Made by a program: the position numbers and the translations under genes | Assembly (NCBI RefSeq): GCF_002205635.1 | Contig: NZ_NISJ01000011.1 | Location: 1 to 64,000 of the forward strand | Length of the DNA stretch: 64,000 nucleotides | Direction: 5' to 3' | Origin: Sphingopyxis witflariensis | GTDB taxonomy: Bacteria; Pseudomonadota; Alphaproteobacteria; Sphingomonadales; Sphingomonadaceae | Shown: positions 28,221 to 46,976 of the stretch, piece by piece | Layout of the letters: each line of letters opens with the position of its first letter | How positions within the stretch are numbered: the first letter of the stretch is position 1 | The notes under the pieces: model-generated | The model's database searches: none | The model's input: only the letters and a program-made list of their open reading frames with translations | What the model was told of the DNA's origin: nothing

Positions 28221-28254
28221 TGACCGGCCCCCACCGAGTGGTCCGGGTGGATTG

Positions 28255-29157: not shown

Positions 29158-29426
29158 CCCCGGGCAGCTTCCTGCAATATCAGCTTGTCCAAAGTGAGGT
29201 CGGATATCGCACGCCGAAGCCGAAGATTCTCCTTCTCCAGGTCCTTCATCCGACGCGCCTGGTCGGTTTTCAGGCCGCCATATTCCTTGCGCCACCGATA
29301 ATAGGTCTGCTCGCTGACCGCGATCCGGCGACACGCTTCAGCCGTCGTGGCGCCCTGCGCCAGCACAACCTCCGCTTCACGCAGCTTGCCAATAATCTCT
29401 TCCGGGCGATGCTTCTTGCTCGGCAT
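29148..29426 (-). CDS. IS3-family transposase OrfA (copy 1)
   Basis: This 92-residue protein has a helix-turn-helix (about 25-48, TAEACRRIAVSEQTYYRWRKEYGG) followed by a leucine-zipper-like coiled coil (LEKENLRLRRAISDLTLDKLIL). It is the DNA-binding half of the transposase. A slippery heptamer GGGAAAC lies at minus-strand 29160-29154, two codons before the stop, allowing fusion to OrfB. Confidence 0.93.
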   Translation of the reverse strand: MPSKKHRPEEIIGKLREAEVVLAQGATTAEACRRIAVSEQTYYRWRKEYGGLKTDQARRMKDLEKENLRLRRAISDLTLDKLILQEAARGNF

Positions 29427-29489
29427 TCATAATCTCCTTCGTAATCCAAAATATCATCAATTTTGGACCACTCAGAAGGGGGCAGATCA

Positions 29490-30414
29490 TTGCGACCTTA
29501 CCCATTCTGTTAAATTTACTGTTTTTATATCAATGATATACCACGATATTTACGACTCACCCGTCACATTCACAAACAAATCAGCCGATCGCCAGTGAGA
29601 CTAGGTAGTGAAATGATAACATTACCCTAATGTTCTATCATCATAACATTTGAACATGATTATCATGAAATATGATGCAATATCATAAACTCGCCAGAAC
29701 TGTCTGATTCGACAAAATTTCCAGAACGATCAGATTGCCTTACCGATACAAGGCTTGCGTAGTCGCAAATCTCTAGAGAATCCGACATTGTCAAAATCCC
29801 ATTTTGATACGAACAAGAAATTAACCAGTTACGGCTTCCCTCTTCTCGTGATCTAATTCGTAACATCTATTCACGCTTATCTTATCTCGCAAGTACAATC
29901 GAATATATCGCACGAAGGGCATGTCACACCGCATGGCTGACTTACCCTGCGCTACCTTGTTCAAATGCCCAGTACGAAGTCCGCGGCACCAAAAGCAGAG
30001 ACGTGCGCGCCTGGGATTTCATGTCATTGGTAGGAAACCGCGCTGGCGACCGCAGTCCCACGGGGCGCGACACGGCTTAAAGCGCGCATCGTCGATGGTG
30101 GAGATCGCAGCCGCAACCTCTCACGCTCGCATCGACGGCTCATTGATATGGCTCTTTAGATTAAGAGCAGATGCCGCCATCACATGGTGACGCGCGAAGC
30201 CGCGACAGCTCGTCGTCCTTTTTCGGGGCCGAATGGCCGGTGACTTGCACTTCCTGCAGATCGGGGCCCGCTTGGAGCAAGGCGCGGATCCCCGGACAAA
30301 TCCGGGATGCCTGGTTATTTCGTAAAGCAGGCTGCACTTTGCGACGCGATCAAGCTGACCCGCGAAGGCCGTGATGGCGGGCGCCACCATAATGCCGCCC
30401 GCCACCCTGGTGGT
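29490..30414. other. Gene-free stretch, AT-rich in its first 440 bases
   Basis: From 29490 to about 29925 base composition drops sharply (long A/T tracts, unlike every other segment in the window). It holds a cluster of ATGATA/TATCAT motifs at 29610-29690, including AATGATAACATTA mirrored by TAATGTTCTATCAT. Short open frames there (for example 29663-29866) have no ribosome site or family resemblance. From 29925 to 30414 composition returns toward normal, with no recognisable gene. A GGCGGGCG / CGCCCGCC dyad at 30376-30403 may end the receptor transcript that comes from the right. Confidence 0.65.
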
Positions 30415-32859: not shown

Positions 32860-32914
32860 GACGGTCCTCTCCAGATAAAAAAGCGGGCCGTCACCTGCGG
32901 CCTTGGCCATTAAC

Positions 32915-32930
32915 CTACGCTCATTAGATT
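32915..32930 (+). promoter_or_regulatory. Cluster motif CTA-N6-TTAG, site D
   Basis: CTACGCTCATTAGATT matches the form CTA-N6-TTAGAT shared with sites at 33914, 40945 and 46508. It lies between the receptor gene (minus strand, start 32859) and the 3' end of the hydrolase gene, so it would serve the receptor. This is the weakest of the four sites because its middle bases differ. Confidence 0.45.
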
Positions 32931-32989
32931 TAAAGTCAATCGCTAAAAATAACGTCGTAAGGTTTACGTGGGTGACCTCGATCTGGCTG

Positions 32990-33874
32990 TTAAGCAGTAA
33001 TTTTGCTTGGCATGGCGGGCTTGCCCTGGCCCAGAACACGCCGCGCAAAAGCGATGACACCGTCGTTGAAAGCATCGTTGCGGTCGCCCGCGACCATATG
33101 GCCGGCACCCGCCACGTCGAGCAGTTGGAGCCGCGGAACCTGCCGGCGAAAGGCTTCAACCCCCGCATCGCTGACGACATCGCTCGACAGGCCGCGCACG
33201 AGCAGCACGGACAGGTCCGAAGACGATTCGAGACTATGCGCCGCCTCGCGAACGACGCTTTGATGAAACTCGGACTGCGTTTCGAGAATCCGGGGGTCCC
33301 AGTGCCAGCGCAGCCGGCCATCATTCCCCTCGCGCAGATTCTTCATGAGGCCGCGGCCCGCGGCCGGGCGCGCACGCTCAGGATTATAGGCAGCGACCGC
33401 ATCCGCCGCCTCATCCACCGAGGCAAAGCCATCGGGATGGCCGCGCATGAAGGAAATAATGCGATCGATGCCCCGCGCATCGGGTTCGGGGACAATATCG
33501 ACAAGGACAAGGCCGGCCGGCTTTAGCCCCTGCGCGATCGCAACGATCGAAGTCGCCCCGCCGAGCGAGGCGCCGACGAGAATGAAAGGCGCGTTGAGGT
33601 CGGCAGTCACGGCCGCCAGATCGGCCGCCCGATCCGATAGCGCATAGGCGCCGGTCGGCGACCAGTCGCTTTCGCCATGCCCGCGCGCGTCGAAATTGAT
33701 GACCTGAAAGCCCTCGGCCAGCAGCCGCTCGACCGCCCTGCTCCAGCTGTGCCGCGTCTGCCCGCCACCATGGAGAAAAATGACCGCCGGCGCGGCCGGG
33801 TCGCCGCCCCGGTCGGCAACCAATTTGACGCCATCCTGCGCGACGAAAACCATATGCTGCAAACCGTTCGTCAT
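32990..33874 (-). CDS. Alpha/beta-fold hydrolase
   Basis: This 294-residue hydrolase has FLHGGGQTRHSW (oxyanion hole), INFDARGHGESDWS, nucleophile Ser in LVGASLGGATS and C-terminal His in DVAGAGHMVAGDRNDAF. The layout matches epoxide/lactone/ester hydrolases of this superfamily, and WSPTGAYALSDRAADLAAV is typical of the esterase branch. The ATG at 33874 follows GGAGCCCCG. It is divergent from the SDR gene across an 82-bp control region that holds regulatory site A. Likely opens a ring lactone or ester in the cluster's pathway, which is inference. Confidence 0.88.
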   Translation of the reverse strand: MTNGLQHMVFVAQDGVKLVADRGGDPAAPAVIFLHGGGQTRHSWSRAVERLLAEGFQVINFDARGHGESDWSPTGAYALSDRAADLAAVTADLNAPFILVGASLGGATSIVAIAQGLKPAGLVLVDIVPEPDARGIDRIISFMRGHPDGFASVDEAADAVAAYNPERARPAAGRGLMKNLREGNDGRLRWHWDPRILETQSEFHQSVVREAAHSLESSSDLSVLLVRGLSSDVVSDAGVEAFRRQVPRLQLLDVAGAGHMVAGDRNDAFNDGVIAFARRVLGQGKPAMPSKITA

Positions 33875-33913
33875 CGGGGCTCCACTCCTGCTTGCCAAAG
33901 CCTTGCGCTCGGC

Positions 33914-33931
33914 CTTATCTAACATCAATAG
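33914..33931 (-). promoter_or_regulatory. Cluster motif CTA-N6-TTAG, site A
   Basis: On the minus strand this reads CTATTGATGTTAGATAAG. It sits between the divergent hydrolase (start 33874) and SDR (start 33957) genes. It aligns without gaps to site C (CTAATGGCGTTAGATAAAAG) and site B (CTATTGTCATTAGGTAAAGG). Confidence 0.6.
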
Positions 33932-33956
33932 TTTTATTGCTAATGGGAGAGAGTGC

Positions 33957-34676
33957 ATGATCCAATTCGACTTCAGCGGCAAGACCACGCTGGTCACCGG
34001 CGGCACGCAGGGGATCGGCCTGGGCATCGCGACCGCCTTTGCCGACAGCGGCGCCCATGTGATCATCAGCGGGACGCGCCCAGAGGCCAGCGACTATGCC
34101 GACGACCTGTCGCGCTTCAACTATATCCAGGCGCGCCTCGATCAACCTGCCGATCGTGCCAAACTGGTCGAGGCGGCTGGGCCAATCGATATCCTCATCA
34201 ACAACGCCGGCCAGTCGCATCCCGATGAATATTCGATGGAGGGCTATGGCCGGGTCATCGACGTCAATCTGAATGCCGCGGTCGAGCTTTGCTATCTTTG
34301 CCATCCCGGCCTGCGCGAACGCGGCGGAACGATCGTCAATATCGGGTCCTGCGCCAGCTTCATCGCGATCGGCTATGCCCCCGCCTACACCGCCAGCAAG
34401 ACGGGGCTGCTTGGCTTCACCCGCGCGGTCGCCGACCAGTGGGCGCGTGACGGCGTGCGCGTCAACATGGTCGCACCCGGCTTTATCGAAACGCGCATGA
34501 CCGCCGGAGTTCGCGAAGATGAGCGGAAGAGCGAGGCGATGCTGCGCGCCATTCCCGCGCGGCGTTACGGAACGCCCGCCGAGGTTGCGGCCGCGACGCT
34601 GTTTCTCGCCGCGCCGCAAGCTTCCTATATCACGGGCCAGAGCATCGTGGTGGATGGCGGGCTGTTGATCCGCTGA
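33957..34676 (+). CDS. Short-chain dehydrogenase/reductase
   Basis: This 239-residue classical SDR carries out NAD(P)-linked alcohol/ketone oxidoreduction. It has the cofactor motif TGGTQGIG, NNAG, the catalytic Tyr144-x3-Lys148 (YTASK) and the C-terminal ITGQSIVVDGGLLIR. Arg after the Gly motif (GTRPEASDY) favours NADP(H). GGGAGAGAG precedes the ATG. It probably oxidises a secondary alcohol in the cluster's pathway. The TetR gene follows 79 bases later. Confidence 0.92.
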   Translation: MIQFDFSGKTTLVTGGTQGIGLGIATAFADSGAHVIISGTRPEASDYADDLSRFNYIQARLDQPADRAKLVEAAGPIDILINNAGQSHPDEYSMEGYGRVIDVNLNAAVELCYLCHPGLRERGGTIVNIGSCASFIAIGYAPAYTASKTGLLGFTRAVADQWARDGVRVNMVAPGFIETRMTAGVREDERKSEAMLRAIPARRYGTPAEVAAATLFLAAPQASYITGQSIVVDGGLLIR

Positions 34677-34755
34677 CGATCCAAAACCTTCTTCTTTTAG
34701 GCTGGCCCTTCGCCGCCCGCGCTGCCATGAGCAGCTAAAGCAACAGGAAATAGCC

Positions 34756-35388
34756 GTGGCACGACCTTCGAAACCCCTGATCTCGCGTAGCGGTGCGGCG
34801 CAGGCCGCGCTCGACGTCATCGACGAGCATGGTCTTGAAGAATTGAGCCTGGGCCTCGTCGCGAAGAAGCTCGGCGTCCGCCCGCCCTCGCTCTATCATC
34901 ATTTCAAGGACAAGTCGGAGCTGTTGCAGGAGGTCGCGCGCATCATGCTGGTGCGGATGCCGGTGATCGCGGCGACGGGCCAGTCGTTCGAGGAACAGAT
35001 TATCGCGCGCTGCGTCGCGACGCGGCAGACCTTGCTCCAACACACGAACGCCGCGCCGCTGATCCTGCGCTACTTCCCCCGCCACATGCTGCTCGCCGCC
35101 TATGACCGCGCCACGTCGGAAGAGCCGTATCCGACAGCGATCCAGATGACCGTCCTCGATGCGGTCGAAAAATACACCTATGGTGCCGCGCTGTTCGAAG
35201 CATCTGCGCGCGCACGCGGGATCGACCCGATGCCGCCGGTCGATAGCGAAAAATATCCGAGTCTGGCGCAAGCCGTCGCCGACAATCCATTCGACGACGA
35301 ACAGCTTTTCGTCGAATCGCTGCGGCTCTTTCTCGCCGGGGTGCGCGAACGCATCCGCACGGGCAGCATCGGCCAACCGCTCGAATAA
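34756..35388 (+). CDS. TetR/AcrR-family regulator, candidate controller of the cluster
   Basis: This 210-residue repressor has its HTH at about 26-46 (LSLGLVAKKLGVRPPSLYHHFKDKSELL) and a TetR_C-type C-terminal domain (about 80-205) that resembles the tetracycline-repressor side of the family. GTG start with ACAGGAAAT upstream. It stands within the catabolic cluster, downstream of the SDR and convergent with the thiolase-like gene. It is the only regulator between 30 and 56 kb, so it is the natural candidate for the CTA-N6-TTAG sites; that link is inference. Confidence 0.9.
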   Translation: MARPSKPLISRSGAAQAALDVIDEHGLEELSLGLVAKKLGVRPPSLYHHFKDKSELLQEVARIMLVRMPVIAATGQSFEEQIIARCVATRQTLLQHTNAAPLILRYFPRHMLLAAYDRATSEEPYPTAIQMTVLDAVEKYTYGAALFEASARARGIDPMPPVDSEKYPSLAQAVADNPFDDEQLFVESLRLFLAGVRERIRTGSIGQPLE

Positions 35389-35403
35389 CGCGCCCCCTCC
35401 CCC

Positions 35404-36570
35404 CTATGGGACGATATTGCCGAAGATCGCCGAGCTGACCGTCGGCGCACCGGGACCACCCGCGAGCAGACCGATTTTCGCGTCGGGCACCGGGTTCGCC
35501 GACTCCCCGCGCAATTGCTTCACCGCCTCGATCGCGGTTCCGATGCCGTGGATGAAGCCTTGCGCGAAATTTCCGCCGCCGGTGTTGGCCGGCAGCTTGC
35601 CGGTCGGCGCGATCAGATTGTCGAAGCGGATGACCTCGGCGACATTTTCATAGGTGCAAAAGCCATGGTCGATGAGCGACGCGACGCCTTGGGCGCTGAA
35701 ATTCTCGTAAAGCTGGACGACGTCGATATCGGCGGGTGACAGCCCGGTATCGGCATAGAGCCGCCGCGCGATCGGGCGGAAGCCGGCGGTCGGATAGAGC
35801 GCCTCATCGTCATTTTCGAGCAGGTCGCCCCAGCCCTTTTCGGCGCCGTTGGCGCAGCCGAGCAGATAGACCGGCGGCTTTTTCAGGTCGCGCGCGCGTT
35901 CGGCCGACACCATCAAGAAAGCCCCTGCCCCGTCATTTTCACGGCTGCAATCGAACAGACGGAAGGGCTCGGCGATCCAGCGCGAGTTTCGCATCGCGTC
36001 GAGATCAAGCTCGCGGCCATAGGCCACCGCATCGGGATTGCGCGATCCATGATAATAGGAAGCGCGGACCAGTTCCTCGGCGACCGCGCGCGAAACGCCA
36101 TGATGCTCGTACATCCGGTTGGCGCGGATCGCGCAGACCTGTGCCGGCGCAACGATGCCCGCCGCGAGCATATGATCGTTGAGGTGATGCGCCATCACCG
36201 CCGCCGACAAGCGCCCGCTCGATCCTTCGACCAGCGCCCGGAAGACGATGACCGCGCTCGCCTGTCCCGATATGATTGCCGCCGCAGCCAACCCGAATGC
36301 GCCGGCGATGCCGCCGCCCCCGCCGCCCCAGACCATGCTCGACCATTTAAGCTCGCGCGTGCCGAGATCGGACATCAACCGCACGGGTTCGTTATGGTCG
36401 TCGCCATAAGAGACGAAGCCGTCGACATCGGCGGGGTCGAAGCCCGCGTCGGCGCAGGCGTCGATCACAGCCTGAGTCAGAACGCCGCGTTCGGGAAGCG
36501 GCGATGTGCCGCGCTTATACTGCCGCACGCCAATGCCCGCGACGGCGGTGCTGCCATAGAGCGGGGTCAT
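35404..36570 (-). CDS. SCP2-thiolase-like protein (lipid-transfer/aldolase type)
   Basis: A 388-residue thiolase-superfamily protein. It resembles the SCP-x/Ltp branch: AGIGVRQYKRG, SSMVWGGGGGGIAGAF, QLYENFSAQGVASL and NTGGGNFAQGFIHGIGTAIEAVKQLRG. The usual Cys of degradative thiolases is not where expected; the glycine-rich stretch replaces it. In Ltp2-like proteins, paired with a DUF35 partner, such enzymes perform retro-aldol cleavage of a CoA thioester side chain. The DUF35 gene directly upstream overlaps this one by ATGA, exactly that pairing. Aldolase or thiolase activity remains to be shown. Confidence 0.85.
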   Translation of the reverse strand: MTPLYGSTAVAGIGVRQYKRGTSPLPERGVLTQAVIDACADAGFDPADVDGFVSYGDDHNEPVRLMSDLGTRELKWSSMVWGGGGGGIAGAFGLAAAAIISGQASAVIVFRALVEGSSGRLSAAVMAHHLNDHMLAAGIVAPAQVCAIRANRMYEHHGVSRAVAEELVRASYYHGSRNPDAVAYGRELDLDAMRNSRWIAEPFRLFDCSRENDGAGAFLMVSAERARDLKKPPVYLLGCANGAEKGWGDLLENDDEALYPTAGFRPIARRLYADTGLSPADIDVVQLYENFSAQGVASLIDHGFCTYENVAEVIRFDNLIAPTGKLPANTGGGNFAQGFIHGIGTAIEAVKQLRGESANPVPDAKIGLLAGGPGAPTVSSAIFGNIVP

Positions 36571-36968
36571 GCGTTGCGGCTCCAGATGATCGTGGGAATG
36601 TCGCGGTTTTCGACGCGCGTGCTGCCGATACGGCCGCTGATCGCCTCGCCAATCTGCGGGTCGAGCTGATCGGGATCGTCGAGCCGCCCAAGCAGGCGGA
36701 TATCGCAATCATCGACGGTGGCGACGATCGACACGAACGGCAGGTCGAGCGCTTCGGTAAAGCCAAAGCGATGCCAGGTTCGTGTCCAGGAGAATATCGT
36801 GCCCGTCATCGCGCGTTCGATCCACGCGACCTGGATGCTGCCACAAGAGCCGCATCGGTCGCTCGCCGGCCACAGCCAGGTGCCGCAAGCCTCACAGCGC
36901 GGCAGCATCAGGGCGCCGTCGGCGAGGCCATTCCAATAAGGCGCGTCGGCGCCGTCGATCAACAACAT
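36567..36968 (-). CDS. DUF35 OB-fold/zinc-ribbon protein
   Basis: This 133-residue partner protein has an N-terminal rubredoxin-like zinc ribbon with CEACG and CGSCG (about residues 25-42) and a C-terminal OB fold (GTIFSWTRTWHRFGF, PFVSIVATVDDCDIRLLGRL). DUF35 proteins form complexes with thiolase-like enzymes in CoA-ester metabolism, including the steroid side-chain aldolase Ltp2. It overlaps the thiolase-like gene and is one base from the P450 gene, so these are co-translated. Confidence 0.9.
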   Translation of the reverse strand: MLLIDGADAPYWNGLADGALMLPRCEACGTWLWPASDRCGSCGSIQVAWIERAMTGTIFSWTRTWHRFGFTEALDLPFVSIVATVDDCDIRLLGRLDDPDQLDPQIGEAISGRIGSTRVENRDIPTIIWSRNA

Positions 36969-36969
36969 A

Positions 36970-38187
36970 TCAGGCTGGATTCCATTCGATGGGCAAGGAT
37001 TCGAGCGCCATCACCGTGCCGATACGAAAGGCATGGCGTTCGCCGGGTGTCGCGCGAAAGGCGGGGATGCGCTTCACCCACTCCTCGGTCAGGATACGCA
37101 ATTCGGCGCGCCCCAGGACATGGCCGATGCACAGATGCGGTCCCGATGAGAAGGTCAGATGCGCGGTCTTTTTGCGATCGAGGTCAAAGGCGTTAGGTGA
37201 CGCGAATTTCGCCGGATCGCGGCTGCCGAGGCAAAGGATGTTGAGCAGCATCTCGCCCTCGCGAAACTTCGCCTCGCCGATGTCGCGATCCTTGACCACC
37301 AGCCGCGGCGTGTTGACGACCCCGTAGAGGCGTATCGCTTCGTCGGTGAAGGCGGGGATCAGCGACCGGTCCGCGGCAAGCCGCGCCTGCACGTCGGGCA
37401 TTTGCGCGAGCTGCTGAAAGGCAAAGCCGGTCACATTGGTCACCGTGTCCATGCCGCCGAGGAAGAGCACGAAGCTCATCGCCAAAATCTCGTCGTCGCT
37501 CATCGTCCGGTCGCCGACATCGACCTGGATGAAATGCGACATCAGCTTGTCATCGGGCGCGGCTTTTTTCGCCGCGATCAGCGCTTTGAGTTCACCGAGG
37601 ATCAGTGCGCTGAGACGGCCCAATTCGGCTTCGTCATTCTGCGCCGAGAAGAAATTTTCGGCGAGATGGCGGAAATCCTGAAGCCGTGACAGGTCCATGC
37701 CCATCAATTCCATGAACACGCTGACCGGAAAGATTTTCGACACATCAGCCTGAAAGTCGCATGCGCCCTTCGCAGCAACCGCCTCGACCAGTTCGGCCGC
37801 CCATTCGCGGATGCGCGGTTCGAGCGCCTTGATCGCGTTCGGTCCGAACATCGGCATCATTGCCTTGCGATACGGCAAGTTTTCGGGCGGATCGAGGCTC
37901 AGCGGGATGAAGAAGGGCGGGTTTTCGACACGCGGAATCTGCATTTCGCGGACCGAAAAATGCTCGAAATCGAGGACGACCTGACTAATCGCGTCAAAGC
38001 TTTTGACGATCCAATGGCCGCCGTTGAGCCGGGTCCAGAAGATATCGGGTGCGTCGGCCAACGCGGTGGCATAGCTGCCCTGCACATCCTCACCGATGCG
38101 CGGATCGGCATAAATGTCGAAATCGAACACCAGATGCGGTGCAATATGCGGCGGCACTGGCGAACCGGCAGCAAGGGGTGCGGTCAT
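36970..38187 (-). CDS. Cytochrome P450 monooxygenase
   Basis: A 405-residue soluble bacterial P450. It has the I-helix LFLGGMDTVTN (oxygen-activating Asp-Thr in GGMDT), the ExxR motif DEAIRL and the heme ligand Cys353 in FSSGPHLCIGH. It hydroxylates a hydrophobic substrate with electrons from a ferredoxin system; no ferredoxin or ferredoxin reductase gene is in the window, so these come from elsewhere. CYP numbering cannot be assigned by eye. It overlaps the acyl-CoA ligase gene upstream by ATGA. Confidence 0.95.
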   Translation of the reverse strand: MTAPLAAGSPVPPHIAPHLVFDFDIYADPRIGEDVQGSYATALADAPDIFWTRLNGGHWIVKSFDAISQVVLDFEHFSVREMQIPRVENPPFFIPLSLDPPENLPYRKAMMPMFGPNAIKALEPRIREWAAELVEAVAAKGACDFQADVSKIFPVSVFMELMGMDLSRLQDFRHLAENFFSAQNDEAELGRLSALILGELKALIAAKKAAPDDKLMSHFIQVDVGDRTMSDDEILAMSFVLFLGGMDTVTNVTGFAFQQLAQMPDVQARLAADRSLIPAFTDEAIRLYGVVNTPRLVVKDRDIGEAKFREGEMLLNILCLGSRDPAKFASPNAFDLDRKKTAHLTFSSGPHLCIGHVLGRAELRILTEEWVKRIPAFRATPGERHAFRIGTVMALESLPIEWNPA

Positions 38188-39683
38188 CGTACGCGCTCCA
38201 TATGTTCATGGGCGCCGGCATAGGCTTCGCGCACCGCCGGCTTCGACAATTTCCCGGTCGCGAGACGCGGCAAGGGTTCGGGCGAAAAGGCGACGTAGCG
38301 CGGCACCTTATAGTTCGAGAGATTGCAGTTGCAGTGCGCGATCAGCGCCGCGACATCGACCTCGGCCGCAGCGTGATAGACGACAAACGGGGTCTCGCCG
38401 AACTTCGCGTCGGGCGCCGCAATCGCGAGCGCCTCGACGATGCCAGGAAATTCGCACACCACCCGCTCGACTTCAGCGGCCGAAATGTTGAGCCCGCCCG
38501 AAATGATCAAATCCTTGAGCCGATCGACGAAGGTCAGCAAGCCGCGCTCGTCGAGCGTTCCGATGTCGCCCGAATGAAGCCAGCCCCGCTTGATGACCTT
38601 CGCAGTCTCTTCGGGGTTGCGCCAATAGCCCTGCATCATGCCGGGCGAACGCATCAGTATCTCGCCCGCCTCACCGGGATCACAATCGCTTCCGTCGGGA
38701 CGCACGACGCGCAACTCCATGAAGATGCCGCCCCAGCCGCATTTCTCCGGCTCTTCCAGCGCGAGATGTTCGGGCATCATCGTCGCATTGCCACCGACTT
38801 CAGTCTGGCCATAGATTTGCCGGATCGTGATGCCCTTCGCCTTATAGGCGTCGAGCAATTGACGGCTGACCCGCGCCCCGCCCGCGGTCGCAAGGCGGAT
38901 CGACGACAGATCGGCGTCGGCAAAGCCATCGCAGCGCGCGATGGCCTCGAAAAAGGTCGGCACCGCGCCGAAGCAGTTGATCTTCTCATCCTGCAACAGG
39001 CGCAGCATCGCCTCGGGAACGAAGGCGGGTTCCATGAAGATGGTGCAGCCCTGCGTCGTATAATGGATCAGCTGGACGAAACCCGCCGAGGTGTTGAGGG
39101 GTGCGAGGCTGATGACGCGCGCGCCCGGCGACGAGGCGGTTTCCTCAAGCGCCCAGTTCGCGGCATAGGCGGTCATCGAACGATTGGTATAGACGACGCC
39201 CTTGGGCTTCGCCGTCGAGCCGCTGGTCGCGATGATGACGACCGGTGCATCGGGATCGGGATCATGCGCGACCTTGCCTGGGTCGCCGTGGCGCAGCGCC
39301 TCGACCTCGGCCATCGGACGCGGCTCGAGGCCGGCGGCGGTCATATTGCCCACAAACTCGGGCGCGGCGAAGGCAAAGCGCGGCTCGCTCGTTTCGCACA
39401 GATCGCGGATTTCGCGCGGGGTGAAGCGAAAATTGACCGGATTGACTATCCCGCCCGCGCGGATGACCCCCATGATCAGCGCGCAATAGGCAAGGCTGTT
39501 GGCCGCGCAAATCGCGACGCGGTCGCCGGGTTGCAGCCCGTCGGCCTCCAGCATCGCGGCAACGCGGTCGGACCAGCGCTTGTAATCGCCATAGCTCAGC
39601 CGATCGCCGCCTAGCACCACGGCGGGCTGGTCAGGACGCATTCGCGCCCACCATGCAATCGCGCTCGACAAGGTTTGCGCCAT
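38184..39683 (-). CDS. Acyl-CoA synthetase (AMP-forming ligase)
   Basis: This 499-residue ANL-superfamily ligase activates a carboxylic acid with ATP and CoA. It has the P-loop-like IIATSGSTAKPKGVVYTN, the A5 motif IYGQTEVGGN, GWLHSGDIGTLDERGLLTFVDRLKDLIISGGLNI, and the catalytic Lys in LPRLATGKLSKPAV. The ATG at 39683 has GAGGGATTAT before it; an ATG 15 bases upstream has no such site. The substrate is not readable, but the partner genes suggest an alicyclic or side-chain acid. Confidence 0.93.
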   Translation of the reverse strand: MAQTLSSAIAWWARMRPDQPAVVLGGDRLSYGDYKRWSDRVAAMLEADGLQPGDRVAICAANSLAYCALIMGVIRAGGIVNPVNFRFTPREIRDLCETSEPRFAFAAPEFVGNMTAAGLEPRPMAEVEALRHGDPGKVAHDPDPDAPVVIIATSGSTAKPKGVVYTNRSMTAYAANWALEETASSPGARVISLAPLNTSAGFVQLIHYTTQGCTIFMEPAFVPEAMLRLLQDEKINCFGAVPTFFEAIARCDGFADADLSSIRLATAGGARVSRQLLDAYKAKGITIRQIYGQTEVGGNATMMPEHLALEEPEKCGWGGIFMELRVVRPDGSDCDPGEAGEILMRSPGMMQGYWRNPEETAKVIKRGWLHSGDIGTLDERGLLTFVDRLKDLIISGGLNISAAEVERVVCEFPGIVEALAIAAPDAKFGETPFVVYHAAAEVDVAALIAHCNCNLSNYKVPRYVAFSPEPLPRLATGKLSKPAVREAYAGAHEHMERVR

Positions 39684-39721
39684 ATAATCCCTCTCCATCC
39701 GGTCTGTCGCCGGTTTGCCAA

Positions 39722-40900
39722 TTACAGCAGCGCTTCGATCGCTTCATAATAGCGGACAATATTCGTCTCGAGCCCGCAATAGATGGTTGCTTCAGGCACG
39801 CCCGCATTGAGGCCCGCCTGGCTGATCTCCGCAGCGCGGAAATCCTCGTTGCCGAAAACACCGAGGATCAGTTCGTAGGAGCGCGCGAACACTTCCTCGG
39901 CCTTCGGCGTCGTCGCCGGCCCCGGGGTCAGCATGAAATATTCGACCACCGTCCGGTCGGCGTCGCGCGGCATGAGCAGCATGATGCTGGTATAATATTG
40001 GCTGGTGATGACGACACAGTTGGGGAAAGCCGTATAGGCGTGGGTCACCAGCTTGTGGACATTCGCCCCCGCATCCTCGTCGAGCATTTCGGGGACATAA
40101 CCGATGCGCCCCGATACCTGACGGATATTGGGCCCGAACATATCGACGATGTTCGGTGCGTCCTGGAATTTGTCGCCGATCGAAGCCGCGTGGAGCCGCT
40201 GGACATGATAGCCCTCGAGAAAGGGTTCGAGCACGACCTTCCAGTTCGCCTTGAGGTCAAACGCCTTGCGGCCATAGACATGCGCAGCGGGGATGCCGAT
40301 CGCGGTAAAGTCCTCGGCGACCTGGCTCGACAGCTGCGACCAGTCGGCGGCTATGTCGCGATTGAGCTGGACATAGACGATCCCGCCCCACTCGCGCGCT
40401 TCGAGTTCGACAAGCCCGCGCTGACTCTTGTCGAGGCCCTCGAACGCCTCGCTCCGCGACACGCCGATCAGCTTGCCGTCGATGCCATAGGTCCAGGCAT
40501 GATAGGGACAGGTCATGCGGCCCTGTTTGTGGACCGCGCAATCCTCGATGATCTTCGATCCCTTGTGCTGACAGGCGTTGATGAACGCCTTGATCGTGCC
40601 GTCGCGGGTACGCGAGACGAGCATCGGGACGCCATAGCTGTCGTTCGCCACAACGCTGCCGGGTTCGAGCAGCGCCGATACCGTGACCGGGACCGGATAG
40701 CGACGGAAGATTTTTTCCTGTTCGAGGTCGAAGCGTTCGCGGCCGGTGAAGATCGCATTAGGACGCGTCGCGCCGAAGGGGACGACGACGGCGTCCTTCT
40801 CGGCCGGGATTTTGCGGATCGCCTCAATCTGGCTGGGCGTCAGTTCAGCCAGCGTCGTCACCTTGCGGGCGGGGCGCGCAACGTCTGCAACATCGCTCAT
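39722..40900 (-). CDS. Rieske-type oxygenase, large subunit
   Basis: This 392-residue ring-hydroxylating or demethylating oxygenase has the Rieske ligands Cys110-x-His112 (CQH) and Cys131-x2-His134 (CPYH). The catalytic domain carries the bridging and mononuclear iron region NWKVVLEPFLEGYHVQRLHAAS (ligand His in EGYHVQRLH). No small subunit, ferredoxin or reductase gene is adjacent, so it resembles stand-alone alpha-subunit oxygenases served by a generic reductase. It heads a five-gene minus-strand run (oxygenase, ligase, P450, DUF35, thiolase-like). Site B lies 45 bases upstream. Confidence 0.93.
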   Translation of the reverse strand: MSDVADVARPARKVTTLAELTPSQIEAIRKIPAEKDAVVVPFGATRPNAIFTGRERFDLEQEKIFRRYPVPVTVSALLEPGSVVANDSYGVPMLVSRTRDGTIKAFINACQHKGSKIIEDCAVHKQGRMTCPYHAWTYGIDGKLIGVSRSEAFEGLDKSQRGLVELEAREWGGIVYVQLNRDIAADWSQLSSQVAEDFTAIGIPAAHVYGRKAFDLKANWKVVLEPFLEGYHVQRLHAASIGDKFQDAPNIVDMFGPNIRQVSGRIGYVPEMLDEDAGANVHKLVTHAYTAFPNCVVITSQYYTSIMLLMPRDADRTVVEYFMLTPGPATTPKAEEVFARSYELILGVFGNEDFRAAEISQAGLNAGVPEATIYCGLETNIVRYYEAIEALL

Positions 40901-40944
40901 ATCGACGATTCCTCTCCTTATCGTGGCCTGACCCTATTCGACCC

Positions 40945-40962
40945 TTTACCTAATGACAATAG
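40945..40962 (-). promoter_or_regulatory. Cluster motif CTA-N6-TTAG, site B
   Basis: The minus strand reads CTATTGTCATTAGGTAAAG. It sits in the divergent region between the Rieske oxygenase (start 40900) and the GMC oxidoreductase (start 41043), aligned with sites A and C in the CTA and TTAG-x-TAA blocks. Confidence 0.6.
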
Positions 40963-41042
40963 TTTTTTATGAAGAGCGTATCGACGGGCTCCGTTCGATA
41001 GGATGGACCGGAAAAATACCGGCAGATCAAAGGGAAGAGTGT

Positions 41043-42659
41043 ATGCGCTTCGATTATGTCATCTGCGGCGCCGGGGCGGCGGGCTGTGTTCTGGCCTATC
41101 GCCTCTCCGAAAATCCGGCGATCCGCGTCGCGTTGATCGAAGCGGGGCCGCGCGACCGCCATCCGTTCATTTCGATGCCCAAGGGGCTGGCCAAGGTGAT
41201 GCAGGACCCCAAGCATCTGTGGGTCCATATGAGCGAGCCCGAAGCCGCGACCGCGGGCCAGTCCGAAGCCTGGGTGCGCGGGCGCGTGCTCGGCGGATCG
41301 ACCTCGGTCAACGGGATGATGTATGTGCGCGGCCAGCCCGCCGATTTCGACGCGATCGCCGAACAGTCGAGCAAGGACTGGAGCTGGGAGCATATCGGCG
41401 CCGCTTACCGCGCGCTGGAAAGTCACGAACTGGGCGGAGACGAGACGCGCGGCGATGCGGGGCCGCTGAAGGTGTCGATGCCGACGCAGCGCATGCCGGT
41501 TTCCGACGCGCAGGTCGCGGCGGGCGAAGCGATGGGCTGGACGCGCAAGGCCGACGTCAACGCTCCCGACGATCAGGTCGCGATCGGCTATACCCCGCGC
41601 ACCATCTTCAAGGGCAAGCGCCAGAGCGCGGCGCAGGCCTTCCTGCGGCCCGCCGAGAAGCGCCCCAACCTCACCGTCCTGACCGACCGCACCGTCGATC
41701 GCATCCTGTTCGCCGGCACGCGCGCGGTCGGGGTCGAGGTCGTCCACAAGGCCGCGCGCGAGCGGATCGACGCGGGCCATGAAGTCATCGTCTGCGGCGG
41801 CGCGATGGCGAGCCCCGCGATCCTCGAACGATCGGGGGTCGGCGATGAAAGCCGTCTCGCCGCGCTGGGCATCCCGGTCGTCCATCACAATCCGGCGGTC
41901 GGCGAAGGCCTGATCGAGCATCGGGGGATCATTCTGCAGTGGAAACTCACCAAGGCGGCCTTGTCGCAGAACCGGGTGTTCGGTGGCTGGCGGCTGCTGC
42001 TCGCAAGCTTGCGCTATTACCTCACCGGCGACGGCCCGATGGCGGCGGCGGCCTATGAGATCGGCGGCTGGTTCAAGACGCGGCCGGGGCTCAACCGCCC
42101 CGACGCGCAAATGCTGATCGCGCCGTTCAGCTTTGATATGGAAAAGCAGCGCACCGCGCTGGAGAAGCATCCGGGGATCAACGCCGTCGTCTATCCGCTG
42201 CGCCCGACATCGCGCGGCAGCATCCATATCGCGACGCGCGATCCCGATGCAGCCGCAAGCTTCCAGCCCAATTACCGGTCAACCGAAGAGGATCGCGCGG
42301 CGATGATCGGCGCGGTGCGGGTGATGCGCGATTATGCGAGCCAGGCGCCGCTCGCCGCGATGATCGACTGCGAGACGATGCCTGGCCCCGCGTTCGAAAG
42401 CGATGCCGAGATCATGGACGCTTACGACCGTTTCGGCACCTGCGGCTATCATGCCGTCGGCAGTTGCCGCATGGGCAAAGATACCGCGTCGGTGGTCGAT
42501 CCCTCCCTCAAAGTGCGCGGTATCGAGGGGGTGCGGGTGATCGACACGTCGATCATGCCCGCAATCCCGTCGGGCAACACCAATGGCCCGACGATGGCGA
42601 TGGCGTGGCGCGCCGCCGACATCATCCTGCGCGATGCGCCGCAAACAAAGGCGGGTTGA
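41043..42659 (+). CDS. GMC-family FAD alcohol dehydrogenase
   Basis: This 538-residue choline-dehydrogenase-like flavoprotein has the FAD motif CGAGAAGCVLA with Glu in LIEAG, the first GMC signature region VRGRVLGGSTSVNGMMYVRG, the second signature GGAMASPAILERSGVG, and the active-site His470 in CGYHAVGSCRMG followed by SGNTNGPTMAMAW. It oxidises a primary or secondary alcohol, probably the product of hydroxylation. GGGAAGAGTGT precedes the chosen ATG; the open 30-codon extension overlaps site B. The acyl-CoA dehydrogenase gene starts one base after its stop. Confidence 0.93.
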   Translation: MRFDYVICGAGAAGCVLAYRLSENPAIRVALIEAGPRDRHPFISMPKGLAKVMQDPKHLWVHMSEPEAATAGQSEAWVRGRVLGGSTSVNGMMYVRGQPADFDAIAEQSSKDWSWEHIGAAYRALESHELGGDETRGDAGPLKVSMPTQRMPVSDAQVAAGEAMGWTRKADVNAPDDQVAIGYTPRTIFKGKRQSAAQAFLRPAEKRPNLTVLTDRTVDRILFAGTRAVGVEVVHKAARERIDAGHEVIVCGGAMASPAILERSGVGDESRLAALGIPVVHHNPAVGEGLIEHRGIILQWKLTKAALSQNRVFGGWRLLLASLRYYLTGDGPMAAAAYEIGGWFKTRPGLNRPDAQMLIAPFSFDMEKQRTALEKHPGINAVVYPLRPTSRGSIHIATRDPDAAASFQPNYRSTEEDRAAMIGAVRVMRDYASQAPLAAMIDCETMPGPAFESDAEIMDAYDRFGTCGYHAVGSCRMGKDTASVVDPSLKVRGIEGVRVIDTSIMPAIPSGNTNGPTMAMAWRAADIILRDAPQTKAG

Positions 42660-42660
42660 G

Positions 42661-43677
42661 ATGAGCATGACGAGTGAATTGAAGGACGCGCTGGGCGCGC
42701 GGTTCGACGGCATGAAGTCCGGCGATGACGGCTGGCAGGCGCTCGCCGACGCCGGCGTCCTCGGCCTGCCCTTTTCGCAAGCGCATGGCGGGCTGGGCCT
42801 CGCGCCGCGCGACGGGTTTGCCGTGCTCGAAACGCTGGGCGAACGGGCGACCGCCCTGCCCTATCTCGAATGCGTGTTGCTGGCGGGCGTATTGCTCGAC
42901 CGCGCCGAAGGCGAGCATGCGGCCGCATGGCTGCCGCGTATCGCGCGCGGCGAAGCGAAGCTGGCGTTCGCGTGGCTCGACGACAAGGATGCGGCGCGCG
43001 CAGAAGCCGACAGCAATGGCTGGCGCCTGTCGGGCGGCAAGCTGCTCGCGATCGGTGCGGCCGAGGCCGATGCCGTGATCGCCACCGCAGAGGCCATCGA
43101 AGGTGTGGCCGCCTTTCTGCTACCCCGCGATGCAGTCGCGATGAAGGCCTATCCGACGATCGACGGGCGGCGCGCCGCCGACATTTTGCTCGACGACGTA
43201 TCGCTGCCCGCGGCCGCGCGGCTTGCGCTGACCCCCAACGACATTGCCGAAATCCTCGATCTGGGCGCCGCCGCCATCGCTGCCGAAGCCGCCGCGATCA
43301 TGGCGCGGTTGGTCACCGACACCCGCGACTATTGTCGTCAGCGCGAACAGTTTGGGCAGGCGATTTCAAGTTTTCAGGCGGTGCAGCACCGGCTGGTCGA
43401 TATGCACATCGAGGCGCGCCGCGCCGCCGCCGCCGCCGCACTCGCTGCCGATGCGCTCGATCTGGAAGCCGCCGCGCGCGCGAAAGCGATCAGCGCCGCG
43501 AAGGTCACGATTGCCGATGCGGGGCGGTTCGTCGGGCAAAATGCGGTGCAATTGCACGGCGGCATGGGGATGACCGAGGAACTGCCGGTGTCGGCGCTAT
43601 TCAAACGGCTGACGGTGATCGAAAGCGAGTTTGGGACGCGCGATGAACATCTGGCGCGGTATATAGCCCTAAGTTGA
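42661..43677 (+). CDS. Acyl-CoA dehydrogenase, short form (possible alpha-type subunit)
   Basis: This 338-residue flavoprotein has the acyl-CoA dehydrogenase fold: LGLPFSQAHGGLGLAPRDGF, REQFGQAISSFQAVQHRLVDMHIEARRA and LHGGMGMTEELPVSALFKRL. It is shorter than the usual 380-400 residues, is Ala-rich and lacks the middle-domain GSD motif. Partnership with the second acyl-CoA dehydrogenase at 43819 fits the heterotetrameric type known from steroid side-chain degradation, in which one subunit lacks part of the FAD or catalytic site; that pairing is inference. Confidence 0.86.
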   Translation: MSMTSELKDALGARFDGMKSGDDGWQALADAGVLGLPFSQAHGGLGLAPRDGFAVLETLGERATALPYLECVLLAGVLLDRAEGEHAAAWLPRIARGEAKLAFAWLDDKDAARAEADSNGWRLSGGKLLAIGAAEADAVIATAEAIEGVAAFLLPRDAVAMKAYPTIDGRRAADILLDDVSLPAAARLALTPNDIAEILDLGAAAIAAEAAAIMARLVTDTRDYCRQREQFGQAISSFQAVQHRLVDMHIEARRAAAAAALAADALDLEAAARAKAISAAKVTIADAGRFVGQNAVQLHGGMGMTEELPVSALFKRLTVIESEFGTRDEHLARYIALS

Positions 43678-43680
43678 CAG

Positions 43681-43739
43681 CTCCTCCCTGTCGCGCAGCG
43701 ATGGGGAGGTGGCAGCGGCGCAGCCGCTGACGGAGGGGC
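43681..43739. repeat. Intergenic repeat with CTCCC / GGGGAGG palindromic core
   Basis: CTCCTCCCTGTCGCGCAGCG is followed by ATGGGGAGGTGGCAGCGGCG and a CAGCCGCTG dyad. This composition is a familiar sphingomonad intergenic repeat. The remaining bases to 43818 hold a second dyad (TCCGCTTCGCGGA) and no gene. It separates convergent genes. Confidence 0.65.
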
Positions 43740-43818
43740 TATGGCGCGGTCCCTCCACCATCCGCTTCGCGGACGGTCCCCCTCTTCATGCCTTCGGCAC
43801 AGGGAGGATTGATTGTGG

Positions 43819-45027
43819 CTAAATCCCCAGCTCGGCCTTCGCCAATATGTTGCGCTGAATCTCGTTCGTCCCGGCGTAGATCGTGCTCGCGCGTTCGTTG
43901 AGATAGTGGAGCGGCGCGATCGCCTGCCACACTTCTCCGCTGCAATAATCGTCGGCGATCAGGCCGGGGATCGGCCCGCCGGGCATTGCGACACCGGGCT
44001 GGAAGGCGCGCGCCAGCGGCCCGGCTGCTTCGAGCGCCAATTCGGTCACGCACTGTTGCAATTCGGTGCCGAGGATCTTCATCATCGAGGCGTCGGTTCC
44101 CGCCGGCGACCCCGCCGACAGGCGCGAAAGAATGTCGCTCTCGAGCCGCGCGAGAATGTCGCAGCGGATGCGCGCCTCGGCAATCCGCGCGTCGAGCAGC
44201 GCGCGCGCTGGCCCCGCAGGCTGCGCGGCGACCTGCTGTGCCAGCTCGTCCAGTCCGACCTCGATCTCGGGCGCATAGGCGCTGCCCCCGCGTTCGAATT
44301 CGAGCAGATATTTGGCGACGGTCCAGCCCTGGTCGATTTCACCCAATATATTCGCGACCGGCACACGGACATTGTCGAAGAAAATCTCGTTCTGGATATG
44401 CTCGCCCGACGCCATGATGATCGGGCGGACCTCGACCCCCGGCGACGTCATGTCGATCAGCAGGAAGGTGATGCCCTGTTGCTTGCGCTCCGCTCTCGTC
44501 GTGCGGACGAGGCAGAAGATCCAGTTCGCGACATTGGCGTGGGTCGTCCAGATTTTGGTGCCGGTGCAGATCAGATCATCGCCGTCGCGGACCGCCTTCA
44601 TCTGCAAAGCGGCGAGGTCCGACCCCGCGCCGGGCTCGGAATAGCCCTGGCACCAGAAATGTTCGCCCGACAGCATGCGCGGCAGGAAGAAGGCCTTTTG
44701 TTCGTCGGTCCCGAAACCGATGATCGCGGGGCCGCACATCTTGATCCCCATTGGCGACACCGGCGGCGCGCCCGCGCGGACGCGCTCGCTGGCGAAAATA
44801 TGATGCTGAACGACGCTCCAGTCGCAGCCGCCATATTCGGTCGGCCAGGCGGGCGCGGCCCAGCCTTTGGCGTGAAGCTTGGCCTGCCACGCCATTTGCG
44901 ATTCATGGTCGGCATAGACGCTCGTCATCAGCTGGCCCGCGCGGCGAAGCTCGGGGGTCAGTTCGACGGCGAAGAAGGCGCGGACTTCGTCCCGGAACGC
45001 TTCGTCGGCGGGGCTCAGCTGCGCCAT
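43819..45027 (-). CDS. Acyl-CoA dehydrogenase, full length
   Basis: This 402-residue enzyme introduces a double bond into a CoA thioester. It has the FAD-binding CQGYSEPGAGSDLAALQ, TGTKIWTTHANVANW, GERGGSAYAPEI-like arginine segment FERGGSAYAPE, and at the C terminus STIYAGTNEIQRNILAKAELG, whose Glu is the catalytic base in many members. It is encoded on the strand opposite to the short acyl-CoA dehydrogenase and 1 base after the aldehyde dehydrogenase stop. Likely works with the short form or alone on a bulky substrate. Confidence 0.93.
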   Translation of the reverse strand: MAQLSPADEAFRDEVRAFFAVELTPELRRAGQLMTSVYADHESQMAWQAKLHAKGWAAPAWPTEYGGCDWSVVQHHIFASERVRAGAPPVSPMGIKMCGPAIIGFGTDEQKAFFLPRMLSGEHFWCQGYSEPGAGSDLAALQMKAVRDGDDLICTGTKIWTTHANVANWIFCLVRTTRAERKQQGITFLLIDMTSPGVEVRPIIMASGEHIQNEIFFDNVRVPVANILGEIDQGWTVAKYLLEFERGGSAYAPEIEVGLDELAQQVAAQPAGPARALLDARIAEARIRCDILARLESDILSRLSAGSPAGTDASMMKILGTELQQCVTELALEAAGPLARAFQPGVAMPGGPIPGLIADDYCSGEVWQAIAPLHYLNERASTIYAGTNEIQRNILAKAELGI

Positions 45028-45028
45028 G

Positions 45029-46441
45029 TCACCCCGCCTTCGGGATAAAGATCGCCTTGGGCCGCGTGAATTCGAGCAGGCCGGGAACGCCATTTTCCTG
45101 TCCAAAGCCCGACTGTTTTGCGCCCGCGAGCGGGGTGAAGGGGGTCGATTGCAGATTCTGATTGATCCAGACTGTCCCGGTGTCGAGCCGGTGCGCGATC
45201 GCGGTCGCCGCCGCGATATCGGCCGACCAAACCGCGCCCGCGAGGCCATATTCGCTGTCGTTAGCGCGCATGATAACATCGTCAACATTATCGAATTTCA
45301 GCAGCGGCAGCACCGGGCCAAATGCTTCCTCGACGACGACACGGCTATCTTCGGGCGGATTGTCGACGAGAGTCAGCGGGACGAAATAGCCTACATCGGG
45401 AACCGGGCCGCCTTCGAGCAATGTCAGTCCCTTGGCGCGCGCATCGTCGAGGAGGGCTCGGACGCGGCGGTATTGGGGTTCGTTCTGGACCGGGCCGTAG
45501 CGATTGCCCTGCTCTGCGCCGTCGCCGACGGGGAGTTCCTTCGCCAGTTGGTGGAGGCGGTCGCGCAGCTGGTCGTAGATATCGGCGTGGATATACAGGC
45601 GCTTGGTCGCGACGCAGACTTGCGCGGTGTTGTGGAAGGCGCCCTCGAACAATTGCGCCGCGACCGCGTCGACATCGACATCGGGCAGAACGATCGCGGC
45701 ATCATTTCCGCCGAGTTCGAGCGTAATCCGCTTCAAATCCTTCGCCGCCGACTCCATCACGCGGCGCCCGGTCGCGGTCGATCCGGTGAAGCTGATCTTG
45801 GCGAAGCCCGGGTGCGCGGTCATCAGCGGGCCGAGTGCGTCACCGCCGCAGATGATGTTGAAGACCCCCGCCGGGAAGACGTCGCGGATCAATTCGCCGA
45901 TGCGCAGCGTGCAGAGCGGGGTGAAGGGCGAGGGTTTGAGCACGAGCGTATTGCCCGCCATCAGCGCCGGGCCGATCTTCCACGACGCGAGCAGCACCGG
46001 GAAATTCCACGGCACGATCCCGCACACCACGCCGAGCGGCACATGGTGGACCTCGACCCGGCGGGTGTCGCTGTCCTCGGTGACGTCGACCGGGATATCG
46101 AGCATTGTCGTCGCCTTCAGCCACATCGCGGCGCCGCGGATTTCGGCCTTGGCGCCGGGGAGCGGGCGCCCCTGTTCGCGGACGAACAACGCCGCGAGTT
46201 CGTCGGCATGCGCGTCGATGATGTCGGCGGCCTTGACGAGACACGCCTTGCGGTCGGCGATCGGGGTATCGCGCCACGCGGGGAAAGCGCGCGTTGCGGC
46301 GGCGACCGCCGCGTCGAGGTCGGCAGCGGTGGCATCGGGCGCCTGAGCGAAAACTTCACCTGTCGCCGGATTGCGCACATCGATCGTCGCGGCCGCATGG
46401 ACCGCATGTCCGTCGATCGTCATCGCAAGATTGTCGCTCAT
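45029..46441 (-). CDS. NAD-dependent aldehyde dehydrogenase
   Basis: This 470-residue enzyme has Asn in PWNFPVLL, Lys in LKPSPFTP, Glu in TLELGGNDAA, and nucleophile Cys in NTAQVCVATKR; NTAQVC differs slightly from the common NAGQVC. It would oxidise the aldehyde made by the GMC oxidoreductase to the acid that the ligase activates. The ATG at 46441 follows GTGGAGAGACGA. It is divergent from the GFA gene across the region with site C. Confidence 0.92.
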   Translation of the reverse strand: MSDNLAMTIDGHAVHAAATIDVRNPATGEVFAQAPDATAADLDAAVAAATRAFPAWRDTPIADRKACLVKAADIIDAHADELAALFVREQGRPLPGAKAEIRGAAMWLKATTMLDIPVDVTEDSDTRRVEVHHVPLGVVCGIVPWNFPVLLASWKIGPALMAGNTLVLKPSPFTPLCTLRIGELIRDVFPAGVFNIICGGDALGPLMTAHPGFAKISFTGSTATGRRVMESAAKDLKRITLELGGNDAAIVLPDVDVDAVAAQLFEGAFHNTAQVCVATKRLYIHADIYDQLRDRLHQLAKELPVGDGAEQGNRYGPVQNEPQYRRVRALLDDARAKGLTLLEGGPVPDVGYFVPLTLVDNPPEDSRVVVEEAFGPVLPLLKFDNVDDVIMRANDSEYGLAGAVWSADIAAATAIAHRLDTGTVWINQNLQSTPFTPLAGAKQSGFGQENGVPGLLEFTRPKAIFIPKAG

Positions 46442-46507
46442 TCGTCTCTCCACCACATTGCCGGCCCGCTTATCACAAGGCCTGGTCGTCCATACGGACT
46501 TTACAAA

Positions 46508-46527
46508 CTAATGGCGTTAGATAAAAG
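46508..46527 (+). promoter_or_regulatory. Cluster motif CTA-N6-TTAG, site C
   Basis: CTAATGGCGTTAGATAAAAG lies between the aldehyde dehydrogenase (minus, start 46441) and GFA (plus, start 46554) genes. Its core CTAATGGCGTTAG is an inverted repeat (CTAA/TTAG). It shares 13 of the first 17 bases with site A. Confidence 0.6.
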
Positions 46528-46553: not shown

Positions 46554-46976
46554 ATGACGGTGTCGGAGGCTGAAATCGAAGGCGGATGCAATTGCGGATC
46601 GGTGCGATACCGCGTGGCGGGCGCCCCGCTGGCGGTTGCGGTCTGTCATTGCAGCAATTGCCGCCGCCAGTCGGGCAGCGCCTTTTCGGTCAATATCGTG
46701 GTGCGCGCCGATGCGATGGAGCTGACCGGCGAGCTTACCACCTATGAGGATCGCGACACCGAAAGCGGCGCCCCGGTCCTTCGCCAGTTCTGCGCGACCT
46801 GCAGTTCGCCGATCCAGTCCTTGTCGGCGGCATCGCCCAAGATCGCAATCGTCAAGGCGGGCACCGCCGACGATCCGGCGCGCTTCACACCCGCAGTGCA
46901 TGTGTGGACCGCCTCGGCGCTGCCATGGGTCGAAATTCCCGCCGGCCTGCCGCAATTTGAGCGCAACGCGCCATGA
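46554..46976 (+). CDS. GFA (CENP-V/GFA) zinc-binding family protein
   Basis: This 140-residue protein has three cysteine pairs: CNCGSVRY (about 12-14), CHCSNCRRQSGSAF (about 31-36) and CATCSSPI (about 80-83), plus the glycine-poor beta scaffold of the family. GFA-family proteins bind zinc; some react with glutathione adducts, but most have no proven activity. AACGGGAGA precedes the ATG. It overlaps the CoA-transferase gene as ATGA, so it belongs to that transcript. Confidence 0.88.
   Translation: MTVSEAEIEGGCNCGSVRYRVAGAPLAVAVCHCSNCRRQSGSAFSVNIVVRADAMELTGELTTYEDRDTESGAPVLRQFCATCSSPIQSLSAASPKIAIVKAGTADDPARFTPAVHVWTASALPWVEIPAGLPQFERNAP

Follow-up and report, generated by a model that had tools for sequence, protein, structure and literature searches.

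Candidate operators of a TetR-type repressor in a catabolic gene cluster of Sphingopyxis witflariensis

Among the closest described relatives of the system treated here are the tetracycline repressor TetR, whose operator tetO has CTAT half-sites separated by a five-base spacer (PMC2723105), and EdcR, a TetR-like repressor of the estradiol edc cluster of Caenibius tardaugens for which a palindrome has been proposed in four promoters, less conserved in front of edcR and edcT (PMC8700777). In TetR, Arg28 and Gln38 contact tetO bases +2 and +3, and Pro39, Thr40, Tyr42 and Trp43 are in van der Waals contact with bases (PMC7102968). A TetR with other palindromes has also been named for the bile-salt clusters of Caenibius (PMC12882949). 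The present analysis concerns a stretch of 64,000 nucleotides of Sphingopyxis witflariensis (contig NZ_NISJ01000011.1, positions 1 to 64,000), referred to as the window, which carries a cluster of catabolic genes with four similar sites, A to D, in its promoter regions. These sites are very probably the operators of the TetR-type repressor encoded within the cluster at 34756-35388, which would control the genes of a TonB-dependent receptor and of several enzyme operons. Among the matches listed from the open-licence literature, neither the cluster nor its TetR nor the operator was the subject of any study, and the four papers of that literature in which six 13-base operator words occur all concern, by title, human or cancer-cell biology.

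Sites in the window and in the genome

Sites A, B and C are exact matches to the pattern CTAWTGNNNTTAGRTAA, at 33915-33931 (minus strand), 40946-40962 (minus strand) and 46508-46524 (plus strand), and each lies between divergently transcribed units. This bears out the gap-free alignment of divergent promoters proposed in the initial annotation, in which the positions were off by one base. The weaker site D that had been placed before the receptor gene is likewise real; it lies 5′ of that gene at 32911-32927 and reads CTAATGAGCGTAGGTTA with two mismatches to CTAWTGNNNTTAGRTAA, the minus strand giving the better fit to the full pattern. With up to three mismatches to CTAWTGNNNTTAGRTAA, the window holds eight matches against a chance mean of 2.0, and none of 100 shuffles reached eight. 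The form under which the sites were first described, CTA-N6-TTAG, gives six matches at five places (site C being scored on both strands) against a chance mean of 0.53, a count that was also reached by none of 100 shuffles. That wording captures real sites and is slightly off, as the symmetric form has the core CTA-N7-TAG, and the sites are better described as a 21-bp pseudo-palindrome, TTAYCTAAYGWCAWTAGWTTW. The accompanying remark that the form was not seen in the other long gaps of the window needs correcting, since one more CTA-N6-TTAG, CTATTTGGCTTAG, stands isolated at 273-285 beside a tRNA-Leu gene (136-220), away from the cluster, and is probably a chance match.

In the whole genome (4,306,761 bases in 38 contigs) CTAWTGNNNTTAGRTAA is matched exactly by sites A, B and C alone, and the proposal of a common regulator thus stood up to the strict scan, all exact matches falling in the cluster. 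The single match with one mismatch lies outside it, on contig C11 (L004); it has one clean half-site only, just before a possible start codon, and was taken as chance. With up to two mismatches to CTAWTGNNNTTAGRTAA the genome gave ten matches, and the reversed control also gave ten; loose versions of the pattern are therefore not specific, a scan of this kind has no power, and the analysis was restricted to strict or extended forms. Allowing three mismatches, the 21-mer TTAYCTAAYGWCAWTAGWTTW recovers A, B and C in the genome, site D being too weak for recovery at this threshold. Across the 14 genomes that bear the cluster the same search returned 50 rows, which include two palindromic sites scored on both strands, against two for the reversed control.

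Conservation and co-occurrence with the repressor gene

Among 59 other genomes of the genus that were scanned, 13 carry an orthologue of the cluster TetR (72-86% identity), and the stretches compared around these orthologues extended over 20 kb or as far as the contig end. Site B is exact and site A has at most one mismatch in all 13 related clusters, a D-like site with at most two mismatches is found in 11 of them, and site C is present with at most one mismatch in all six of the stretches that include the aldehyde dehydrogenase and GFA genes. When the cluster of S. witflariensis is included, CTA and TAG at the N7 spacing are kept at A (14/14), B (14/14), C (7/7) and D (14/14), and the six outer bases are intact at all 49 sites. 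Ranked by conservation among the windows of its spacer, the 13-base core stands 1st of 70 at A, 7th of 130 at B and 10th of 100 at C. In eight of the 13 related clusters the gene of the short-chain dehydrogenase/reductase (SDR) is missing and site A stands directly upstream of the TetR gene, which points to autoregulation.

Two further conserved elements were seen. Beside site D, on its receptor-distal flank, a long stretch at 32928-32966 (TTTAAWGTCAAT...TAACG..GTAAGGTTT) is kept in most of the 14 clusters and exceeds the needs of an operator. Just 5′ of the TetR gene, at 34695-34732, an element of the form TTTTaGgCTGG...CTGCCATGAGC is present with or without a preceding SDR gene, its CTGG and CTGCC being invariant in all 14 aligned clusters; it may act as promoter of the TetR gene itself or as the site of another regulator.

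The strict pattern was searched in 80 Sphingopyxis genomes, of which 16 have the TetR orthologue at 72% identity or more (14 among the first 60, S. witflariensis included, and two of the 20 in a second set). It gave 35 matches, against two for the reversed pattern, and the 16 genomes in which they occur are exactly the 16 with the orthologue. None of the 35 sites is more than 12 kb away from the orthologue, and no strict match was found in the 64 genomes without it. S. witflariensis itself has one member of this TetR group, the sole other match in its genome showing 31% identity over the helix-turn-helix.

Related sites were also noted beside paralogues. In L112, L119 and L116 a paralogous TetR (45-46% identity) adjoins a GFA gene and has a well-kept site of its own, CTAATGCCGATAG or CTAACGCCAATAG, which precedes the TetR match by about 62 bases. 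Near position 3491 of L203, L204 and L205, loci of three genomes, a CTA-N7-TTG-like variant (ATCTAATATCATTTGAT and similar) stands 5′ of an aldehyde dehydrogenase gene whose product is about 65% identical to that of the cluster, and which is perhaps a further member of this regulon or of that of the paralogue; the divergent gene in L203 presumably encodes a molybdopterin-type oxidoreductase-like protein.

Beyond the genus, named genomes were scanned with the TetR alignment; 143 relatives were confirmed in this way, and the best 80 of the 143 were used. Because one of the two peptide patterns by which they were fetched was the recognition helix, the sameness of this helix among the relatives is partly built in. 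With nine orthologues set aside, 71 loci with 38-59% identity remained, classed by record title as 24 proteobacterial (including unplaced metagenome-assembled genomes) and 47 actinobacterial, and the counts from them do not represent independent events since many of the relatives are close kin. In the 300 bases that precede the TetR match, 20 of the 71 loci have CTA-N7-TAG, at 22 sites in all, and any other spacing from N0 to N15 occurs in zero to four loci. Over the whole loci there are 162 such sites in 64 of the 71 (158 of them distinct as 25-base stretches), compared with 5 to 18 for each of the other spacings N1 to N15 apart from N13. Only four of the 162 fall inside homologues of cluster genes, which span 49% of the bases, against 30 of 239 at the other N1 to N15 spacings; pairs of CTA and TAG that are not at N7 avoid these homologues as well, though less. 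Outside the searched core, an A is found at position -8 in 79% of N7 half-sites and 30% of those at other spacings, and a pyrimidine at -7 in 76% and 41%, respectively, and the A at -8 holds for each of the two phyla (0.74 and 0.84). In Tsuneonella flava (L111, TetR 45% identical) sites lie between the GFA and aldehyde dehydrogenase genes, 5′ of the Rieske gene, between the hydrolase and TetR genes and 5′ of the receptor gene, with two more between the GMC and ligase genes, the same logic thus accompanying shuffled genes. In Caulobacter vibrioides OR37 (L103) a core identical to that of site B stands just 5′ of the Rieske homologue.

In the actinobacterial loci (L136, L153, L145, L169 and others) the half-sites are often repeated six bases outward, CTAAATCTATAGTTGTTAG, which produces a second peak at CTA-N13-TAG; with this arrangement a single operator could accommodate two dimers in offset positions.

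Other TetR genes served as controls. No N7 site was found within 360 bases upstream of the helix-turn-helix (corrected for strand) in 28 other TetR genes of the S. witflariensis genome, nor at the same distance in 16 distant TetRs of the relatives, and other spacings are likewise rare in the control loci (zero to two each). The 28 were drawn from 31 other TetR_N matches, two of the 32 matches being without a locus and L179 (a cut locus) and L186 (the cluster TetR) being excluded. Searching 200 genomes of the phylum for other TetR_C_1 proteins gave 18 matches in nine genomes, and among these only L215, which is tetracycline-repressor-like, has an upstream CTA-N7-TAG, twice; four other TetR_C_1 loci with a TetR-like QPALYWH helix have none upstream. 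This last control is rough because several of the 18 frames have no clear helix-turn-helix. A ranking of every three-base half-site by locus count was swamped by GC-rich words and nothing was gained from it.

The repressor, its proposed regulon and competing explanations

The cluster TetR contains the TetR_N domain (PF00440, 47.6 bits against a cut-off of 24), which is found in all 22 aligned members, and a TetR_C_1 domain (PF02909, 23.3 bits against a cut-off of 21, E 6e-5), found in 21 of the 22 at E ≤0.1. Since a six-frame search of the genome with the PF02909 model alone did not recover it, the protein is regarded as a marginal TetR_C_1 member. It scores 65.6 bits with the tetracycline-repressor equivalog model NF010319, for which the cut-off is 265. 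Its closest solved relatives by sequence are the tetracycline repressors, those of class D first (E 2e-13), and the predicted structure (mean pLDDT, the predicted local distance difference test, 80 for the best of five models and 64-77 for the others) has tetracycline repressors as its best matches, and BioQ of Mycobacterium smegmatis comes third. In a gap-free alignment, with TetR numbering counted by hand, the cluster TetR has Gly28 and Pro38 in place of Arg28 and Gln38, retains Pro39, Tyr42 and His44, and carries Ser instead of Thr40. Throughout the 80 loci the recognition helix has the form PSLY-H/Y-H. None of them has Arg at position 28 or Gln at position 38, and many of the Actinobacteria carry Arg at position 29. 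The operators here share the outer bases 4-6 with tetO and differ from it at the inner bases 1-3, a pattern of residues and bases that would agree with direct reading of the operators by the cluster TetR.

Taken with the directly established sites, their conservation, their co-occurrence with the TetR gene and the half-sites and spacing common to the relatives, these features lead to a model in which we infer the binding itself, repression rather than activation, the dimer geometry, the operon limits and the inducer. Each subunit of a dimer would hold one CTA half-site, the two lying seven bases apart, and the repressor would cover three divergent promoters and that of the receptor gene. When the substrate is absent, the receptor, hydrolase, SDR and enzyme operons and tetR itself would be off. 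A pathway compound or its CoA thioester might then bind to the C-terminal domain, upon which the dimer would leave and all units would be switched on together. Through site A the SDR-TetR transcript would be subject to negative autoregulation. The putative regulon comprises the units receptor, hydrolase, SDR-TetR, Rieske-ligase-P450, GMC-acyl-CoA dehydrogenase, aldehyde dehydrogenase-acyl-CoA dehydrogenase and GFA-CoA-transferase. The initial suggestion that one regulator serves all of them gains support, at the level of sequence, from the conservation of the sites at the same promoters in 13 related clusters, from the exact co-occurrence with the TetR orthologue in 80 genomes and from the core beside distant relatives, lines of evidence that all lead to the TetR encoded at 34756.

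Several observations weigh against this reading. Six of the 50 rows returned by the 21-mer lie outside the cluster. Site D does not conform to the strict pattern; its core ranks only 38th of 118 in its spacer, because the whole receptor promoter is conserved. Of the 71 distant loci, seven lack CTA-N7-TAG altogether and 51 lack it in the 300 bp preceding the TetR match, and the spacings N0 (CTATAG, 46 sites) and N13 (51 sites) are raised as well, the latter in part because half-sites are nested or repeated in Actinobacteria. In a simple scan covering one promoter type, none of the four sites showed a sigma-70-like promoter. TetR proteins can also act as activators, and sequence cannot tell the two modes apart.

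It is far less probable that the motif is a core promoter element common to the units, such as that of one sigma factor. In favour of such an element are the AT-richness of the motif, its distance of about 30 to 90 bases from the start codons and the longer conserved promoter stretches that accompany it at B and D. Against it are the two-fold symmetry of the motif, which serves genes in both directions, and the sigma-70-like scan, which, for its one promoter type, was empty at the sites. The exact sites, moreover, are missing from the 64 genomes of the genus without this TetR, and as they track one TetR they do not behave as a general promoter element. Only marginally better are the prospects of an explanation in which a different regulator, or a TetR paralogue with its gene elsewhere, binds the sites. 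Seven of the 60 genomes scanned first do carry paralogues with 45-51% identity, some of which have a related site just 5′ of their own gene, but the S. witflariensis genome has all four sites and no such paralogue, G112 (77% complete), with a 47% paralogue and no orthologue, has no strict match, and the same core stands beside relatives of the cluster TetR in two phyla. The slightest prospect of all is left for chance, or mere common ancestry of AT-rich spacers. AT-rich gaps in a GC-rich genome favour similar words, and the loose pattern is no commoner than its reversed control; the 35 strict matches against two, the higher conservation, at each of the four sites, of the 13-base core than of the remaining spacer and the peak at N7 in distant loci speak against such an origin.

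With control by the cluster TetR, a run of unrelated-looking genes would become one probable substrate-induced regulon with a testable operator. The motif serves to find further members, the inducer of the repressor-operator pair would point to the substrate, and the half-sites and spacing held in common allow first regulon predictions for the 71 distant relatives. The operator frame common to these relatives may also interest students of DNA choice by TetR proteins.

Features of the cluster and its candidate operators (window positions)
Feature	Position	Strand	Sequence	Context
Operator A	33915..33935		TTATCTAACATCAATAGTTTT, core CTAACATCAATAG	between hydrolase (-) and SDR-TetR (+)
Operator B	40946..40966		TTACCTAATGACAATAGTTTT	between Rieske operon (-) and GMC-acyl-CoA dehydrogenase (+)
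Operator C	46504..46524		CAAACTAATGGCGTTAGATAA	between aldehyde dehydrogenase-acyl-CoA dehydrogenase (-) and GFA-CoA-transferase (+)
Operator D	32911..32931		TAACCTACGCTCATTAGATTT	upstream of TonB-dependent receptor
TetR-type repressor	34756..35388	+		TetR_N and marginal TetR_C_1; proposed binder of the four operators
TonB-dependent receptor	30415..32859	-		unit of D
Alpha/beta hydrolase	32990..33874	-		unit of A
SDR dehydrogenase	33957..34676	+		unit of A, upstream of TetR
Rieske oxygenase	39722..40900	-		first gene of minus-strand unit of B
Acyl-CoA synthetase	38184..39698	-		
Cytochrome P450	36970..38187	-		nearest solved relatives P450cam and other CYP101
Small protein	36567..36968	-		homologues beside thiolase in many loci
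Thiolase-like, lipid-transfer-type enzyme	35404..36708	-		
GMC oxidoreductase	41043..42659	+		unit of B
Acyl-CoA dehydrogenase	42583..43677	+		unit of B
Aldehyde dehydrogenase	45029..46456	-		unit of C
Acyl-CoA dehydrogenase	43819..45288	-		unit of C
GFA-domain protein	46554..46976	+		unit of C
CoA-transferase family III	46973..49246	+		unit of C

Some of these assignments call for comment. The small protein is, from its context, a putative DUF35/OB-fold partner of the thiolase-like enzyme, whose true start is probably internal, at the onset of homology. For the aldehyde dehydrogenase the ATG at 46441 looks likelier as the start. Steroid, bile-salt and estrogen clusters were considered as likenesses for the pathway; from P450cam, a CYP101-type P450 would presumably also fit a terpenoid-like ring compound as substrate. 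Two identical copies of a 1,270-base insertion sequence with rve integrase domains (28221-29490 and 61784-63053), in the same orientation, bracket the cluster-bearing stretch like a large composite transposon.

Comparison with known repressor-operator systems

Other regulators resemble the cluster TetR in part. EdcR is likewise a TetR-type repressor of a sphingomonad degradation cluster, whereas its proposed operator, TnnCnnTACnAnTnGTAnnGnnA, and its C-terminal domain, TetR_C_11, are different; sites A to D, compared by eye, do not fit the published consensus, and because operator and C-terminal domain both differ EdcR belongs to another TetR branch. AmtR of Corynebacterium glutamicum shares the TetR type, CTAT half-sites and a Ser-Leu-Tyr-Tyr-His helix, unlike the present case in that its half-sites are one base further apart (a six-base spacer) and that it serves nitrogen control (PMC2723105). 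PheR of Sphingobium, which acts on phenanthrene genes, also represses a catabolic operon, and its deletion raises TonB-dependent receptors as well, but it belongs to the IclR family and has an unrelated motif (PMC13273656).

The tetracycline repressor and tetO remain the nearest system in sequence and one of the nearest in predicted fold, with the TetR_C_1 domain in common. The operator core CTA-N7-TAG is also that of tetO, a likeness of the frame only, and CTATCACTGATAG is found twice beside the tetracycline-repressor-like homologue L215. The inner bases, by contrast, are AAYGWCAWT-like here and ATCAnTGAT in tetO, and the cluster TetR, without Arg28 and Gln38, is catabolic and would act on several operons. 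A tentative and on balance doubtful extension of this comparison is that TetR_C_1-like repressors of Proteobacteria and Actinobacteria form a clade that runs multi-operon degradation clusters through one ancient operator type (palindromes rich in WWAYCTAA, with CTA-N7-TAG). The tetracycline repressors, which share the frame and differ in the three inner base pairs per half-site that residues 28 and 38 read, would then look like a specialised offshoot of catabolic repressors; the other TetR_C_1 proteins sampled mostly lack such a site.

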